In this document: one piece after another, positions 37,869 to 50,041 of the stretch
How the letters are laid out: the number at the start of each line of letters is the position of its first letter
Numbering within the stretch: position 1 is the stretch's first letter
NCBI GenBank assembly: GCA_938034445.1
Contig: CALHLD010000011.1
Span: 1 to 64,000, forward strand
Direction of reading: 5' to 3'
Length of the DNA: 64,000 nucleotides
From: an uncultured archaeon
GTDB taxonomy: Archaea > Thermoproteota > Nitrososphaeria > JACIWG01
The notes under the pieces: generated by a model
Database searches by the model: none
The model's input: only the letters and a program-made list of their open reading frames with translations
What the model was told of the DNA's origin: nothing
Translations under genes and position numbers: made by a program

Positions 37869-39140
37869 ATGAGATTATATTTTGTTCAAGTGCATATGTT
37901 TTTGATGGATATGCGCGACTCCAACGGTATTATATTAGGTTTTACAGACGGTCAAATGTTAGAGTTGAATGTTGACGATTTTGGGCGTCTGCTTATAGTT
38001 GGCGGCTGCTCTGAATCGTATACATTCTATCTTCTTGAAAAACTATCATGTAAGTTCCAATTAGCCTTCTATAGTTTAAAGGATGTTTCTTCAAAAGTTT
38101 TAAACAATTTTCATGTCCTGGATCTAGAACATTTGCTTCCAAATATTCTGGTATTTGATAGTTTAGGCCATAACCTTTCCTCCAGAATCATTGCTGAAGC
38201 TTTCAAATATTCTTTCAAGCTTTCTGAAGAAGAGTTTCTTCTTCTTCATACTCTACTGTTGTCTCTTTTAAAACAAAGTAGTAAACTTAATCTACTGCAT
38301 ATTGTAAGTGGTGTAAAATCATCTTCTTCTACGGATTCAAGTGTTCTGGAAAAGAATGCTGCCCTAAAGCTAGAATGGCGTCTGCACTTGATTGAAGAAC
38401 TATTCCCATATGTTATAAGAAGAGGTGATAATGTTGCTTATGATGGAAGTGTATGCTATAATCTGTCCTTCATCAACTCTGTTGAAGGAAAACTTTTGAC
38501 TCTCCTGCTTCTACTTTCAAAAAACTTTTTATATGATAGAGTAAGGGTTCCAGTAATTTTTTTAGGAAATTTTCCTGACCATGCTAAAGCTTATATTGTA
38601 AGTTTTATTGATCTTCTCCAAAATATTGTTGAACCAATTCCACTTATATTGTCTTGTAAACAAGGTTTTCCATTAAAGTATTTGAATTTTTTTGAAACAC
38701 TAATTTTTGATAAACCTTTTCTAGAAATTTTTGAAGTTAGTCTAAAAACTTTTTACCGTAAAAGCGGCTGTAGGGGTGAACTTTTCTATGTAAGAGGTGA
38801 CAATATTATCCCATTTTTTTATGATGAACCTAAGCTAGAAACTTTTGGAGAAAAGCTTCAGCATGTCACAAAAGATTTTGTTGAAGACTATCCGCTAGTT
38901 CAAAGGATTCTTGAAGTTATCTCCAACTACCCTAATGTGACTAGGCAAGGTCTTATACAATCCCTATCTATAGACTATCCTGCTGAAGTTGTAGAATATG
39001 TTTTGAATGAATTGATTGAAAAAGGCTATGTTATTGTCGAATTTGAGAAGAATAAAATGGGTCAATTTGCAAAGCTCTCAATTTCAATAGACGGACGCAC
39101 CCTTTTATCTAAAAAGAAGGGTGGTGTTCAAAACCAATGA
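37869..39140 (+). CDS. Degenerate HerA/VirB4-like P-loop protein with C-terminal wH
   Basis: 423 residues, not assigned with certainty. The layout resembles HerA/FtsK-type ATPases: GRLLIVGGCSESYTFYLLEKL aligns with the Walker A region but lacks the GK[ST] (residues 45-52). The stretch PNILVFDSLGHNLSSRIIAEAF resembles the family's NPL segment, and VIFLGNFPDHAKAYI sits where Walker B is expected without an acidic pair. Residues ~345-410 form a winged helix (ISNYPNVTRQGLIQSLS). If the alignment holds, it is a non-hydrolysing partner. It overlaps the RecA-like gene by 4 bp. The true start may be at ATG 37905 or 37911. Confidence 0.45.
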   Translation: MRLYFVQVHMFLMDMRDSNGIILGFTDGQMLELNVDDFGRLLIVGGCSESYTFYLLEKLSCKFQLAFYSLKDVSSKVLNNFHVLDLEHLLPNILVFDSLGHNLSSRIIAEAFKYSFKLSEEEFLLLHTLLLSLLKQSSKLNLLHIVSGVKSSSSTDSSVLEKNAALKLEWRLHLIEELFPYVIRRGDNVAYDGSVCYNLSFINSVEGKLLTLLLLLSKNFLYDRVRVPVIFLGNFPDHAKAYIVSFIDLLQNIVEPIPLILSCKQGFPLKYLNFFETLIFDKPFLEIFEVSLKTFYRKSGCRGELFYVRGDNIIPFFYDEPKLETFGEKLQHVTKDFVEDYPLVQRILEVISNYPNVTRQGLIQSLSIDYPAEVVEYVLNELIEKGYVIVEFEKNKMGQFAKLSISIDGRTLLSKKKGGVQNQ

Positions 39141-40138
39141 AAACCGGATTAGATGTTTTGGATAAAATTTTAGGGGGAAACTTTCCTCAAGGTGTCCTTT
39201 TACAAGTTTTTGGTGAAAAGGCTGTTGGAAAAAGTATTTTTTCCTCGCAATTAGCGTACAAGAATCTTGAGCAGGGTGCTAATAGTCTAATAATAGATAC
39301 TGAGCAAGGTTTCAAAAACACTATAGGCTCATATTGGCATGAGCGTTTTAAGAAAAGGTTTAACCTAGAGTGTGATTTACAGTATGTTAATATTAGGAGG
39401 TTTGCTTTAAGGGGAAGAGAAAAGAAGGTTTTCGAGTCTGAGCTTAAGTCACTTTTTGAGGCAGCGCTTTCTTCAATGAAAATAAACTATACGAAGGCTC
39501 AGCTGGAGCAGGCCTGCTGGCCCTTTCTTGAAGGCATTGAAATAGGGTATGCTGTTAAAGATAAGCCAACATTATATGTTATTGAGGCTCCAGCCTTACA
39601 GGATATTCTTGCATTAAATGGTGTAAGGTGTGATATCCTAATAAGCGAGTCTGGACGTGTTGAAGTTAGACTTCTTCCTGGAACAACCTTTAAAGTTTCT
39701 GAAAGTGTTCTTGGCAGGTTTGTTCAAGAGGCTAACATATCGCTACTTGTGTACGATAGCATTTCTATGCCCCTTAAGTCGACGTTTATTGGTACTCAAG
39801 ATTTTCCTGGACGCTCTTCTGCTACTGCGCTGATTCTTGGCCAGACTCAGAAGCTTTGTTCCGAACTCAATATCTCTGTTATAGCATTGAATCATGTTAC
39901 TGTGAACCCTATAACTGGACAGAATAAGCCTTATGGTGGACAGATTGTTGGCTACGACTTCAAGTTTAGTTTTATGCTGGAAAAGGCTTTCTCTAATATT
40001 GTTAACGATAGGACCATCGTTAATAGGGAGACCTTAAATGAAGCTAACAGGATTCTTAGAGTTCATAGACATCCTTCTATTCCAGAATATTCGCTATCTA
40101 TCGCGTTAAAGTTGTGTGATGAAGGCTTTTTCTGCTAA
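39137..40138 (+). CDS. RecA/RadA-like ATPase with large insertion
   Basis: 333 residues. Walker A GEKAVGKS is at 26-33, the IIDTEQGF motif (compare RadA IDTEGTF) at ~52-59, Walker B LLVYDSIS at 203-210 and ALNHVTVNP at ~245. KPYGGQIVGYDFKF resembles the RadA/RadB C-terminal part. About 100 extra residues lie between the TEQGF motif and Walker B compared with RadB, in a segment with its own beta-rich block (GVRCDILISESGRVEVRLLP). The N-terminal DNA-binding domain of RadA is absent. A RadB/KaiC-like ATPase working with the flanking proteins is likely; actual recombinase activity is unproven. Confidence 0.65.
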   Translation: MKTGLDVLDKILGGNFPQGVLLQVFGEKAVGKSIFSSQLAYKNLEQGANSLIIDTEQGFKNTIGSYWHERFKKRFNLECDLQYVNIRRFALRGREKKVFESELKSLFEAALSSMKINYTKAQLEQACWPFLEGIEIGYAVKDKPTLYVIEAPALQDILALNGVRCDILISESGRVEVRLLPGTTFKVSESVLGRFVQEANISLLVYDSISMPLKSTFIGTQDFPGRSSATALILGQTQKLCSELNISVIALNHVTVNPITGQNKPYGGQIVGYDFKFSFMLEKAFSNIVNDRTIVNRETLNEANRILRVHRHPSIPEYSLSIALKLCDEGFFC

Positions 40139-40154
40139 ATATGTGGTTTAATTT

Positions 40155-41258
40155 ATGGTAGCAAAATTTTCTAGAATAATCTTATTTTCTCTGACAATAT
40201 TTTTAGCTTTTGTTACAGTATTAGTTTTCCTAAGCATTCTATTACATTTTGTGAACGATAGCCTTTCTAGGATATATTTTTTCACCACTTCCACCCTATT
40301 TTACTTTCTCCTTTTCTCTTACTTAGCTTACGTGTTCTTAAGGGTTAGACTCTTTTATAGCCTTTATCATCTTTTTAGAAAGGCTTTAAAATATGGTCTT
40401 CTAATTTCTTTCTCATACACTTTACCATATACTATATTAAAAGATAGTGTCTTGGCACTAATTTTACATCCCATAACAGTATCATTATATGTTGCTTCGA
40501 AAAAGAATTTGATTTTCTTTAGAACGCATTTTCTAAGTTATAAGTTTTGTGATGGTTTTTTGATTGAAGGCTTTTTTGTGAAAAGGGTTCATCTGATAAT
40601 GCAAGTTTATCCCTCCACTTCCCAGGATACTGTAGTCAATAGGCTCTCTAGATTTGGTGAAGTTTTTCTTTTAAAGTATCCTCATGGTTTTCTAATGTTG
40701 TTTAAATGTAGTAGTCTGTGTATTTCCTACAGTTTTTGGAAAAGGTTTCTTCAAAAACGTTTTCTAGTACCCTTTAAGGATCTTGTTCCATCACTCTGCC
40801 ATCTTAGAATATTATCGTGTAAGGAGATGAAAGAATTTTTGGATAGAAGGTACGTTCCAGCTAAATCTTCTTTAAATTTGAAAGGTTTTTCTTCAGTTGA
40901 CCTAATATATTTTCCTAGAAGCCGAGACCGTCTTAGGTGTGCCTTTTTCATGGTAGGTGTCGGGGGCTCAAATCTTCTTTTGCTAGAAAAGGTCGGTGTA
41001 AAATGTTTTGAAGTAGACCACTTTACTGGCTGTCATCTATATTTAGACGACCTTTATGCCTTTTTGAAGTCTCTTCACACATGTAGTCGTCTTTTCGAAT
41101 ATTATGGCATGTGTCCTGTAAGGGCTAATATTGTAAGAAATGGTGACTGTTTTAGGGTTAAGATTCTATCTTCTCCTCCAGTCTGTTTGGAGCATGGACA
41201 GCTTAATCTACAGCTTACACTATATTCTCTTAACATTAGTATGCTACAAAAAGGTTAA
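40155..41258 (+). CDS. Polytopic membrane protein of the RecA-like cassette
   Basis: 367 residues, unrecognised. The N-terminal ~130 residues contain about four membrane helices (ILFSLTIFLAFVTVLVFLS, IYFFTTSTLFYFLLFSYLAYV and two more). The remaining ~230 residues are soluble, with many Cys and basic residues, and contain a segment PHGFLMLFKCSSLCISY and, later, FFMVGVGGSNLLLLEKVG. ATG start 16 bp after the RecA-like gene, same strand. The three genes probably act together, with this protein anchoring the ATPases to the membrane. Function unknown. Confidence 0.55.
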   Translation: MVAKFSRIILFSLTIFLAFVTVLVFLSILLHFVNDSLSRIYFFTTSTLFYFLLFSYLAYVFLRVRLFYSLYHLFRKALKYGLLISFSYTLPYTILKDSVLALILHPITVSLYVASKKNLIFFRTHFLSYKFCDGFLIEGFFVKRVHLIMQVYPSTSQDTVVNRLSRFGEVFLLKYPHGFLMLFKCSSLCISYSFWKRFLQKRFLVPFKDLVPSLCHLRILSCKEMKEFLDRRYVPAKSSLNLKGFSSVDLIYFPRSRDRLRCAFFMVGVGGSNLLLLEKVGVKCFEVDHFTGCHLYLDDLYAFLKSLHTCSRLFEYYGMCPVRANIVRNGDCFRVKILSSPPVCLEHGQLNLQLTLYSLNISMLQKG

Positions 41259-45055: not shown

Positions 45056-45556
45056 ATGTCTGAACAAAATAAGATTAATGTTACTTTAACATATGGTCTC
45101 CTTAGGGCAGAGTTTTCAGGTTCTCCTGAAGAAGTTGTCCGCTTCTTTAACCAGTTTATTACACAACAGCTTCCACAGTATGATCTTGCCCAAAAGATAT
45201 CATTAAACTTTAGCCTAAACGACCTAATGCTCTCTTTCTCAAACTTTATAAGAATAACTCCTGAAGGTGCAAAGGTTTGGCAAACAGACTTAAGTGATAA
45301 GGAAATTATCGCTCTACAGCTTGTTGCTACAAAGATAGAATATCTATTGAATAGACGTCAGAGGGAAAGCATGCAGTTGCAGGAAATACAGTCTTCAACT
45401 GGCATAAACGCGAAGAGTGTTAGCTCTAGAATAAGTGAGCTTGTGAAAGCAAATTATGTTGAAAGGATTCCCTTGGAGAGAGGTAATGCTTACAAAATAA
45501 CGACAATGGGCATAGAATGGCTTAGGCAGCAGCTTCAAAAGAAAGTAAAAAGCTAG
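45056..45556 (+). CDS. Small beta-hairpin plus winged-helix protein, copy 2
   Basis: 166 residues. The N-terminus INVTLTYGLLRAEFSGSPEEVVRFF parallels that of the gene before it. The middle is helical, and the C-terminal ~75 residues are a MarR-like winged helix (QLQEIQSSTGINAKSVSSRISELVKANYVERI). ATG start at 45056, just after AAGGTAGTGT. A transcriptional regulator or DNA-binding protein; target unknown. It is convergent with the third copy. Confidence 0.55.
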   Translation: MSEQNKINVTLTYGLLRAEFSGSPEEVVRFFNQFITQQLPQYDLAQKISLNFSLNDLMLSFSNFIRITPEGAKVWQTDLSDKEIIALQLVATKIEYLLNRRQRESMQLQEIQSSTGINAKSVSSRISELVKANYVERIPLERGNAYKITTMGIEWLRQQLQKKVKS

Positions 45557-45970: not shown

Positions 45971-46024
45971 GTTGCGCAACATTTAAATCCTCCCTTTTCC
46001 CACCCATATTGTTCAACATGAACA
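45971..46024. promoter_or_regulatory. Promoter and two palindromes upstream of nurA-herA
   Basis: GTTGCGCAAC at 45971-45980 is a perfect 10-bp palindrome lying at the BRE position of a TATA-like ATTTAAAT (45981-45988), about 30 bp before nurA ATG 46018. TGTTCA (46010-46015) and TGAACA (46019-46024) form a second inverted repeat across that ATG. Together they look like operator sites on the leaderless nurA promoter. Confidence 0.45.
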
Positions 46025-47058
46025 ACAAAATAAATCTTCCTGTCGAAGATGAACAGAAGCTGAGCCTTATATTATCAAGTAGCATAATCCACCGTTTGAC
46101 AGACTTTAAACGAGTTTTCGGAAAAAAGGTTGTTTTCCACAAAAGGGAGGCTGGAGAGCTGAAGCCGATATTTTCTATCTCCAATTCTCCCCTACAGCTT
46201 CAGATAGAACCTTTTGATGTTGTTAAAGTTGACTGTAATGTTGTTGGAATAGATTCATCATGTATTTCTATTGGGGAGACTGAAGAGGGTTGTCTTTATT
46301 CTGTTAAGTCTGGTGTTTTCATTTACTCTACTTCTAAGCCTAAAACATACTATTCTCTTGGACCTTATGTCGTTTATGTTGACGATGAAGTTGTTAGGCA
46401 AATATATTATGGAAGTCCTGTCAGGGAGAAGGTTGTAAGGCTTGTGTCATTGGACACTGAATATACTAAAAAATTGATCAGATTCATTTTTGAAAGGGAA
46501 ATTTTGAAGCAGGTTACTTCTAATCTAAAAGATAGTATTATATTGGTTGACGGTTCACTTAAGTCAACATCTTTCGAGCTTGAAGGAATATCTTTGAAGA
46601 AGATACTTGAAATTGCTTTAGAAAATGGTAATGCTGTTGTCGGCCTTTCTAAAAGTAGTAGGCTTAAGGTTGTTAAAAATATTGCAAACTATATTGAGCT
46701 ACTAAACTATGCTCCAGTAAAAGTTGATGTTCACCATATTCTTGAAGATGTTGTTGAAAGGCTTGAGGGGCATATTTTTATTGTCAAGTTTAAGAGGCAC
46801 GGTTATGCTTTTAGGGTTGATGTACCATTTGACCTAATCTTTGATGTTGACACCATATTGGGTAAAATCCTGTGGAATGACAGTTTCAGATACGGTTACC
46901 CTGAATCTCTTATTATGGCTCATAATCTTTCAGTCTTTGACCGTGTTGAAGAGGTTTCAGTAAAAAGTGCTATTGCAAAATCTTTGAACATCATTCAAGT
47001 TCCCGCACATAACCTTAGGAAGATGCTTTTGAATGGTTTAAAGTTTGAGGGAGGCTGA
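46018..47058 (+). CDS. nurA: NurA 5'-3' nuclease
   Basis: About 346 residues. NurA fold with the first catalytic Asp in VVGIDSSCISIG and the later acidic site in SIILVDGSLKSTSF. The C-terminal part has the MAHNLSVFDR and VPAHNLRKML segments seen in the family. NurA with HerA resects double-strand ends for recombination. ATG 46018 is chosen; TTG 46009 would sit in the leader. The hexameric partner HerA begins 6 bp after the stop. Confidence 0.85.
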   Translation: MNNKINLPVEDEQKLSLILSSSIIHRLTDFKRVFGKKVVFHKREAGELKPIFSISNSPLQLQIEPFDVVKVDCNVVGIDSSCISIGETEEGCLYSVKSGVFIYSTSKPKTYYSLGPYVVYVDDEVVRQIYYGSPVREKVVRLVSLDTEYTKKLIRFIFEREILKQVTSNLKDSIILVDGSLKSTSFELEGISLKKILEIALENGNAVVGLSKSSRLKVVKNIANYIELLNYAPVKVDVHHILEDVVERLEGHIFIVKFKRHGYAFRVDVPFDLIFDVDTILGKILWNDSFRYGYPESLIMAHNLSVFDRVEEVSVKSAIAKSLNIIQVPAHNLRKMLLNGLKFEGG

Positions 47059-47063
47059 AAATT

Positions 47064-48554
47064 TTGAGGATTGTTTCAAAAAAGGATGATGAAATAATTG
47101 TTCTCGCCCTCCCCAGTGAAGAGGTTAAGAAGGGTGACTATCTTCTAATCGAGGACCCGAACATTAAAAAAGAGATGGTTGTGCAAGTATATGATGAAAC
47201 GTACATCGACTCCAACAATTTTTTGGACGAAATTGTTAGAGATGAGGTTATAAAGTCTTCTACTCCTTCGATAGAAAATGATCCTCTAGAAATTGGGACA
47301 TTATCTTACATGCTTATGGACTTACGTTTTCTAAAGTGTAAGATTAGGGGCTGTTTTGAAAATGGTGCTTATGTTCCATCATCAAATTGGCTTCCGTCTA
47401 GGGCTTCCTCAAAGATTAAGCATATTACGGTAAGCGAACTATATTCTAGGGTTTTTGGTAAAATGGACTTGAATATTGTTATTGGCTTCACTTTAGATAA
47501 TCATCCTTACAGCATAAGCTTGCATAATCTTGACGGTCAACTAAATATTATTACTGGAAGAAAGGAATCAGGAAAATCACATCTTTCAAAGATTCTTGTT
47601 TCAAAGCTTGTTGAAAATGGTGCTTATGTTGTAATCTTTGACATAAACAACGAGTACAATGGTATCGGTAAAAGGAGGGATGGTTCCGAAAATGAAATCG
47701 GTAAAAAGATTGTAGCGCTTAGGCCTGGAGAAAACTTTAGATTCTCTATAAAATATATTGGGCGGAGAACTCTTATCAACATACTGGAAAATGTGCTCGA
47801 TACTCCAGGTGTCACCTTAAGAGAATTTATTCGAATACTCGATGACCTTGAATCTAAGGGTTGTCTCACACTAAAGGCTTTAGGTGAAACAATACAAACC
47901 TGGAAATGTAATGAGTTTGTTAGGGATGCTATGCTTACAAGATACTATTCCATACTTGCCTCAAAACTTTTTACTGATTTCCTTGAAGAATCCTTCAAGT
48001 TCGAGGATGTCTTTGAAAATTTTAAAGATGGGGTTGCCATGATAATACAGCTTGGTAACAAGCCTCCTATTGCTAGAAGGATTGTGGTCGAAACTGTGCT
48101 CAATAAGGTTTGTGACCTGCTTGAATCAAATAAGATTCCTCCAATATTCCTTTTTGCTGAAGAAGCACACCTATACCTTAGGGAAACGTACTGGGACGAT
48201 CTTATAACTAGAATGAGACACTATGGTGTTTTCACCACATTTGTCACAAACCAGCCTGACGCAATACCAGTTGGAATATATAGGCAGGCTGACAACATCT
48301 TCCTATTCAATTTCATAAACTCTAACGACCTTGAAATGGTTTCTAAGGCTTCAATGGTTGACACTGAAACTGTAAAGTCTTTGGTTAGAACACTTCCGCC
48401 AAGGCATTGTCTTGTGATAGGTAAGGCTGCTGGGAACCTGCCTTGTCTAATAAGGGTTGTTCAATCGAACTTTCAAGCGTTGGGCGAAACAAAACGTTTT
48501 TTTAGAGAGCGTGTCCAGTTTGCTGAAACATTATCTACTAGGCTGGTGTATTAA
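47064..48554 (+). CDS. herA: HerA bipolar helicase/translocase
   Basis: 496 residues. Walker A GRKESGKS is at 165-172, the motif IFDINNEYNGIG follows, and Walker B appears as FLFAEEAHLYL with Glu-Glu-Ala-His. NQPDAIPVGIYRQADNIFLF is the C-terminal HerA signature. HerA pumps DNA into NurA. The acidic pair in the Walker B region is present (AEEAH rather than DEAH). TTG start. mre11 and rad50, which often sit beside herA-nurA, are not here. Confidence 0.9.
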   Translation: MRIVSKKDDEIIVLALPSEEVKKGDYLLIEDPNIKKEMVVQVYDETYIDSNNFLDEIVRDEVIKSSTPSIENDPLEIGTLSYMLMDLRFLKCKIRGCFENGAYVPSSNWLPSRASSKIKHITVSELYSRVFGKMDLNIVIGFTLDNHPYSISLHNLDGQLNIITGRKESGKSHLSKILVSKLVENGAYVVIFDINNEYNGIGKRRDGSENEIGKKIVALRPGENFRFSIKYIGRRTLINILENVLDTPGVTLREFIRILDDLESKGCLTLKALGETIQTWKCNEFVRDAMLTRYYSILASKLFTDFLEESFKFEDVFENFKDGVAMIIQLGNKPPIARRIVVETVLNKVCDLLESNKIPPIFLFAEEAHLYLRETYWDDLITRMRHYGVFTTFVTNQPDAIPVGIYRQADNIFLFNFINSNDLEMVSKASMVDTETVKSLVRTLPPRHCLVIGKAAGNLPCLIRVVQSNFQALGETKRFFRERVQFAETLSTRLVY

Positions 48555-49288: not shown

Positions 49289-50041
49289 TTAAAAGTGCTT
49301 GTCCAAGGTTTCTTCAAATGGTTCAACGGTCAAGAGTTTAGAAATCTTGTTCAGGTCAAGTTTTCTGAAACTGTACCCTTTCTTCTCAAGCAAAGATAAG
49401 GCTTGCTTTGTAATCGATGGCGCACAGAGTATGCCACGAAACTTTGTCGGCTGACCTTTTACATACTTGTCAAGCTGTTTAACTGCATCGACACCTGCAG
49501 TACGCCTTTTAACTTCAACAAAAACATAGTTTCCATCTCTGTCTATGCCAGTAAAGTCTACAACTCCCGTAGAAAGAGGCTTCTGCTTCGAAGTCAACCT
49601 CAACCCATTTTCAATAAACTCTGGATGCTGAAATAGTATACTATAAAATGTTTCCTCAGAGGGTCCCATAAGAAACTTTGCATCATCAACTAGGCTTGCT
49701 GAAAAAATAATGTAAACCTTATCAAAAACAGCTTTAAGAAACTCTTTAGGACGCCTACGTTCAGAAAAAACGATCATCTTATCACCTTCAACCCTACACC
49801 TTATAATACAACCGCTAGGCTGCCAGTTTACAGGCTCATAACCCTTACTCCTATGAACAAGGACGGAACCATCACCCTTAATAATCAAAATCCTTTCGCC
49901 AGAACCTAATGTGGACGAGCTTCTACCAACATATTCGACACTGAAAAGTCCACAGCATACAATAAGATTTTTCATCCTTAAAGCAGAGTTAACAAAATCT
50001 GATGCAGTAGCAATGGAGGGATAAAGTAAAGATTCTATCAT
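49289..50041 (-). CDS. nucS: NucS/EndoMS mismatch endonuclease
   Basis: 250 residues. The N-terminal DNA-binding dimer domain precedes the RecB-like nuclease domain with GVVDFTGIDRDGNYVFVEVKRR, which gives the D-E-x-K catalytic set, and a following Gln-rich helix (AVKQLDKYV). It cleaves mismatched or branched DNA and interacts with the sliding clamp. A PCNA-binding C-terminus is weak here (PFEETLDKHF). Well conserved in length. Confidence 0.9.
   Translation of the reverse strand: MIESLLYPSIATASDFVNSALRMKNLIVCCGLFSVEYVGRSSSTLGSGERILIIKGDGSVLVHRSKGYEPVNWQPSGCIIRCRVEGDKMIVFSERRRPKEFLKAVFDKVYIIFSASLVDDAKFLMGPSEETFYSILFQHPEFIENGLRLTSKQKPLSTGVVDFTGIDRDGNYVFVEVKRRTAGVDAVKQLDKYVKGQPTKFRGILCAPSITKQALSLLEKKGYSFRKLDLNKISKLLTVEPFEETLDKHF

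Follow-up and report, generated by a model that had tools for sequence, protein, structure and literature searches.

FtsK consists of a region of four transmembrane (TM) helices, an active motor of the FtsK/HerA fold and a C-terminal winged helix. HerA, the partner of NurA, has the same core fold together with a Walker A motif and an N-terminal HAS-barrel domain, and RadA combines a RecA-type core with an HhH N-terminal domain and a polymerisation motif. The archaeal DNA import systems Ced and Ted (CedA, CedA1, CedB, CedD) use HerA/VirB4-like proteins, namely CedB and CedD, in the company of membrane proteins (PMC9905601, PMC11868833), and CedB/TedB is an active ATPase (PMC9905601). The locus described here recalls each of these systems in part. 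It lies in a 64,000-nucleotide stretch of DNA, hereafter the window, from an archaeal genome of 56 contigs, the close kin of which, among named records, are bins named 'Nitrososphaeria archaeon', followed by others that include Candidatus Geothermarchaeum and 'Geothermarchaeota' bins. The initial annotation of the window, made from the sequence alone, described three genes that overlap or nearly touch and run in one direction, and the list of open reading frames indeed places all three on the same strand, with a 4-nt overlap between genes 1 and 2 and a 16-nt gap between genes 2 and 3 (Table 1). Judging from conservation, the true start of gene 1 is probably the ATG at 37911. Within-genus substitution rates revealed purifying selection on all three genes; the constraint was strongest for gene 2 (dN/dS 0.05-0.09) and weakest for gene 3 (0.32-0.37), with gene 1 at 0.18-0.22.

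Table 1. Positions in the window of the three genes and of the sites and domains discussed in the text.
Feature	Positions	Strand	Description
Gene 1	37869..39140	+	423 aa; predicted HerA/FtsK-superfamily protein that lacks a P-loop and ends in a winged helix
Gene 1, lost Walker A site	38001..38018	+	residues 45-50, GGCSES; most HerAs have GxTGSGKS here (alignment)
Gene 1, C-terminal winged helix	38889..39131	+	residues ~341-421; PadR/MarR/AspA-type matches and structural model
Gene 2	39137..40138	+	333 aa; RadA-family (Rad51/KaiC superfamily) ATPase core without the RadA N-terminal domain
Gene 2, Walker A	39212..39235	+	residues 26-33, GEKAVGKS; all 37 aligned relatives share G26, G31 and K32
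Gene 2, family-specific insertion	39389..39706 (limits approximate)	+	~90 residues; lies after E56 (catalytic Glu) and before D207 (Walker B)
Gene 3	40155..41258	+	367 aa; membrane protein, N-terminal TM region followed by cytosolic alpha/beta domain

Single-sequence and Pfam searches returned no fold for gene 1, and scans with Pfam, NCBIfam, PADLOC and PHROG models found no name for gene 1 and no name or family match for gene 3. An alignment of 41 relatives of gene 1 served as the input to AlphaFold, and the resulting model of the window protein (mean pLDDT 84.5) was compared with the PDB by Foldseek. The best match was HerA (4d2i, E 8e-7); the ten matches at E <= 0.001 comprised HerA, VirB4/TrwK of the R388 type IV system and Cag-beta, and those of lower rank included another HerA, VirB4 and EssC. 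When the gene 1 profile was compared with a HerA alignment by hhalign, the match was 98.3% (266 columns); the value was 98.4% once the winged helix had been cut off, and 1.4% or less against RadA, KaiC and gene 2. Control families built from neighbouring genes scored low, except for the winged-helix families, the gene 1 set included as a positive control, and one family, ctl10, which is probably another HerA. Thus, both the model and the profile search place the RecA-like core fold of HerA/FtsK in gene 1, in agreement with the HerA/VirB4-type protein envisaged at first.

It is the ATP site of this fold that appears to be lost. The Walker A lysine, found in all 22 HerAs, was absent from each of the 32 aligned P-loop-less relatives, and a GK[ST] motif, already reported missing from the window protein, did not occur anywhere in the sequences of the 41 gene 1 relatives. 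An apparent P-loop in the protein of locus L233 was rejected as a chance motif at its C-terminus. Alignment and model together make it well supported that gene 1 is a HerA/FtsK-superfamily fold without a P-loop and with a presumably dead ATP site, in line with the one inactive ATPase-like subunit proposed by the initial annotation. The N-terminal HAS-barrel domain of HerA is also absent, there being too few residues before the core; since position 6 of the gene 1 profile aligns to position ~128 of the HerA profile, no room is left for it. The winged helix that gene 1 was said to have gained was recovered by both family matches and the model (Table 1). It is to be noted that a MarR-like winged-helix protein at 45056-45556 of the window is likewise picked up by the gene 1 profile, a match that is probably due to its winged helix. 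Overall, gene 1 resembles the HerA of HerA-NurA in its core but differs from it in the missing Walker A, the missing barrel and the added winged helix, and furthermore in its partners, NurA being replaced by a RadA paralogue together with a membrane protein.

The motifs of gene 2, in contrast to those of gene 1, are intact, and its assignment as a RadA-family ATPase is well supported on the basis of its sequence. Like RadA and RadB, the 13 gene 2 proteins compared have a RecA-type core, and every one of them retains the Walker A Lys, the catalytic Glu, the Walker B Asp and the loop-1 Arg, as the intact P-loop noted earlier would suggest; unlike in RadA, however, the gamma-phosphate-sensing Gln is replaced by His throughout this set of 13. 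The catalytic Glu and Walker B are separated by 143-150 residues, compared with 57-59 in RadA, and the insertion before Walker B is therefore real, although it amounts to ~90 rather than the ~100 extra residues originally estimated. Only 31-43 residues precede the Walker A Lys, as against 110-164 in RadA, and alignment with RadA detected neither the HhH N-terminal domain, correctly recorded as missing from the window protein, nor the polymerisation motif. With no polymerisation motif and with His for the sensor Gln, gene 2 need not act on DNA as RadA does. Its scores fell below the NCBIfam cut-offs for RadA (44.3 vs 259 bits) and for RadB (TIGR02237; 47.6 vs 172.4 bits), and in the tree the gene 2 proteins were grouped together (99/97), separate from RadA and the KaiC-like proteins. 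Most genomes with the trio encode a canonical RadA elsewhere, the copy of the source genome being at G000:C1:48192-49136. The PADLOC defence-system models gave only weak matches, of which the best in the window was that of gene 2 to mad8 (E 5e-4, and 3e-6 for a relative), covering the RecA-fold region.

The description of gene 3 as a four-helix membrane protein with a Cys-rich soluble domain held in part. The membrane and soluble portions are both present, but four TM helices, followed by an alpha/beta domain, were seen in the model of an f11 relative (pLDDT 81.7), whereas hydropathy of the window protein revealed only two strong ones. Likewise, the window protein does have 12 cysteines, but its counterparts in loci L114 and L048 have none, and a Cys-rich metal domain was ruled out because the cysteines are not conserved across the family. 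The best PDB match of the f11 model was a chain of 6umm, the ESX-3 translocon (E 0.01, probability 0.57, TM-score 0.23-0.27), which we take, from its length, to be probably EccE3. EccE3 has two TM helices and then a cytosolic domain (PMC6986878). Among the matches listed at E up to 1, however, none of 32 gene 3 relatives had an EccE Pfam match, and no other ESX gene was seen in the trio module. The likeness to EccE/EccC of type VII secretion thus comes down to one weak structural match, and of the 'membrane-associated DNA-handling or secretion machine' initially suggested, secretion finds no further support, and DNA handling is retained as a proposal. No credible viral structure match was obtained for gene 3, and a viral origin of the module was rejected, as a scan of viral contigs gave only one partial match to a P-loop region.

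Across families, the third position of the trio is variable. The window type and the f11 type of gene 3 are joined by a weak profile match (58% over ~200 columns, with unrelated controls below 1%), and in family f2 the position is held by two genes, one for a small TM protein and one for a soluble protein, and gene 3 showed no detectable sequence similarity to either. No homology was detected between gene 3 and the membrane proteins of the RadA-version operons described below. Given the weak match to the f11 counterpart and none to these latter proteins, a role of gene 3 as an anchor would rest on position and topology.

Orthologues of gene 2 were found, among the sampled genomes, only in five families of the class to which the window belongs (f1, f2, f4, f8 and f11), and a wide score gap separated them from the RadA and KaiC paralogues elsewhere. 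Gene 1 was directly upstream of gene 2, often with the same 4-nt overlap, in 46 of the 47 loci that have gene 2, and the co-occurrence of the trio in relatives that had been proposed as a check was observed. Neither of the two outcomes named by the initial annotation as refuting its proposal, i.e., the lack of a P-loop fold in the first protein or of co-occurrence in relatives, was thus encountered. The exception, L048 (f8), has genes 2 and 3, and gene 1 was not found there. Two further loci carry gene 1 in pieces, i.e., in two or three frames (L063 6071-7226; L139 4093-5403), possibly due to assembly errors or decay. The genes flanking the trio vary from family to family, which argues that the trio itself is the conserved unit. 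A larger operon with Elp3, GatD/GatE or HerA-NurA was considered and rejected, since these neighbours recur only within the family to which the window belongs. As regards the window, a P-loop HerA (47064-48554) adjoins NurA (46009-47058) ~5-7 kb downstream of the trio, and NucS (49289-50041) is also downstream; in the other f1 genomes a HerA match likewise lies a few kb downstream of the trio.

A phylum-wide search with the gene 1 profile was followed by a second one, for which the profile was built from the matches linked to RadA, and the fetched loci were inspected. The pairing of a P-loop-less HerA with a RadA paralogue was found to extend beyond the class, to 33 loci in the sampled genomes, some of which are cut by contig ends so that not all of their parts are visible. 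The recurrent order is a membrane protein, a P-loop-less HerA with winged helix, an open reading frame of ~100 aa, and radA. The membrane protein is mostly ~200 aa long with 1-3 hydrophobic segments, and the operon radA retains its N-terminal domain. Two f16 loci combine a larger membrane protein and a P-loop-less HerA with a KaiC-like ATPase. By profile-profile comparison, the RadA-linked HerAs and gene 1 match along their full length (99.3%, 384 columns). In the tree, the P-loop-less HerAs, i.e., gene 1, the RadA-linked and the f16 proteins, split from the P-loop HerAs with a support of 100/99, and the split persisted when the winged helix was left out (SH-aLRT 92). This topology is consistent with a family of old origin in which the ATP site was lost once, which, the tree being unrooted, is the simplest reading rather than a proof. 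Nearly all RadA-version genomes have a better-scoring RadA elsewhere, and the operon RadA is thus a dedicated paralogue. Compared with the initial annotation, two points are new, namely the connection with RadA paralogues and an origin of the dead HerA family that seems to be both single and old.

A conserved HerA fold without the usual ATP binding, kept with a RecA-family ATPase, in most cases a RadA paralogue, and a membrane protein, argues for a membrane-anchored complex in which labour is divided. With confidence about evenly poised, we favour the view that genes 1-3 encode one such DNA-handling complex, made of a pseudo-HerA scaffold, a RadA-paralogue ATPase and a membrane anchor, and that recombination is its most likely task, as the RadA link suggests. 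Sequences and models show the order and conservation of the genes, the lost ATP site, the intact motifs of the ATPase, the membrane segments and the recurring association of this pseudo-HerA family with RadA paralogues; we infer that the three products associate physically, bind DNA and hydrolyse ATP. Gene 3 would be the anchor; gene 1, a pseudo-ATPase that no longer pumps, would form with its winged helix a DNA-binding scaffold or ring; and gene 2, as the dedicated RadA paralogue, would bind and hydrolyse ATP and act on DNA mechanically or as a loader. As for the process served, homologous recombination is the most likely one; the complex would perform or prepare it at the membrane as a kind of mediator, and the DNA concerned may be incoming DNA. 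More tentatively, the trio may exemplify a machine that is general among archaea and old in the phylum. At the membrane, a ring of catalytically dead HerA would recruit a dedicated RadA paralogue, and the system, serving recombination or the uptake of DNA, would have no counterpart among those described.

Other arrangements of the same parts can be envisaged. In a DNA import machine similar to Ced/Ted or a type IV secretion system, gene 3 would be the pore or cap, gene 1 a dead VirB4/HerA ring, and gene 2 would pull the DNA in and pass it on to RadA; the fold of gene 1, the use of HerA/VirB4-like CedB and CedD in archaeal import (PMC9905601, PMC11868833), the weak ESX-3 match of gene 3 and the RadA paralogue of the related operons all speak for it. 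Nonetheless, we consider it rather unlikely, because the trio locus has one membrane protein with ~4 TM helices and neither a CedA-like channel of 6-7 TM helices nor a CedA1-like pilin gene, the membrane partner in the RadA version is mostly smaller still, and the motor that drives Ced and type IV systems is precisely the one that is dead here. The RadA-type ATPase is a further difference from Ced/Ted. A split FtsK-like complex for chromosome segregation or dimer resolution, in which gene 3 is the 4-TM anchor, gene 1 the FtsK/HerA core with winged helix, and gene 2 the outsourced motor, reproduces the FtsK domain set in separate proteins; it is improbable, however, since the motor site active in FtsK is lost from gene 1, and a separate RadA-type partner is alien to FtsK systems. 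Lastly, a regulatory or signalling unit, i.e., a winged-helix transcription factor governed by a membrane KaiC/RadA-like ATPase, would accord with the PadR/MarR-type matches and the KaiC-like ATPase of the f16 version, but is very improbable, as purifying selection on the whole of gene 1 and a partner that is usually a full RadA paralogue indicate DNA work rather than gene regulation.

These results define a family of HerA proteins without a P-loop whose genes remain beside those of RadA paralogues in many families of a single archaeal phylum, a pairing for which no description was found in the open-access literature searched. This suggests a membrane-linked branch of recombination in these archaea, undescribed in that literature, and the complex favoured here would clearly illustrate how a DNA pump can become a pseudo-enzyme scaffold. 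The module supplies genes for knock-out and complexes for purification.

A few minor features of the RadA genes and their surroundings were also recorded. The ~100-aa open reading frame between the P-loop-less HerA and the operon RadA (RadA2) was read in four loci (L184 3738-4061, L186 1784-2122, L189 3445-3777 and L193 5941-6318), and has no counterpart in the window trio. Directly 3' of the operon RadA, inspection by eye showed, in L183 (5754-6062) and L186 (518-868), a small protein whose CxC..CxH pattern resembles a SWIM zinc finger. The sensor Gln was replaced by Pro or His in 5 of the 13 operon RadA paralogues compared, and these replacements may reflect altered ATP coupling. Finally, three RadA genes (on G492:C1, G007:C6 and G025:C51) each have an interruption at residue ~115 that leaves a single long frame open, the pattern that inteins would give.
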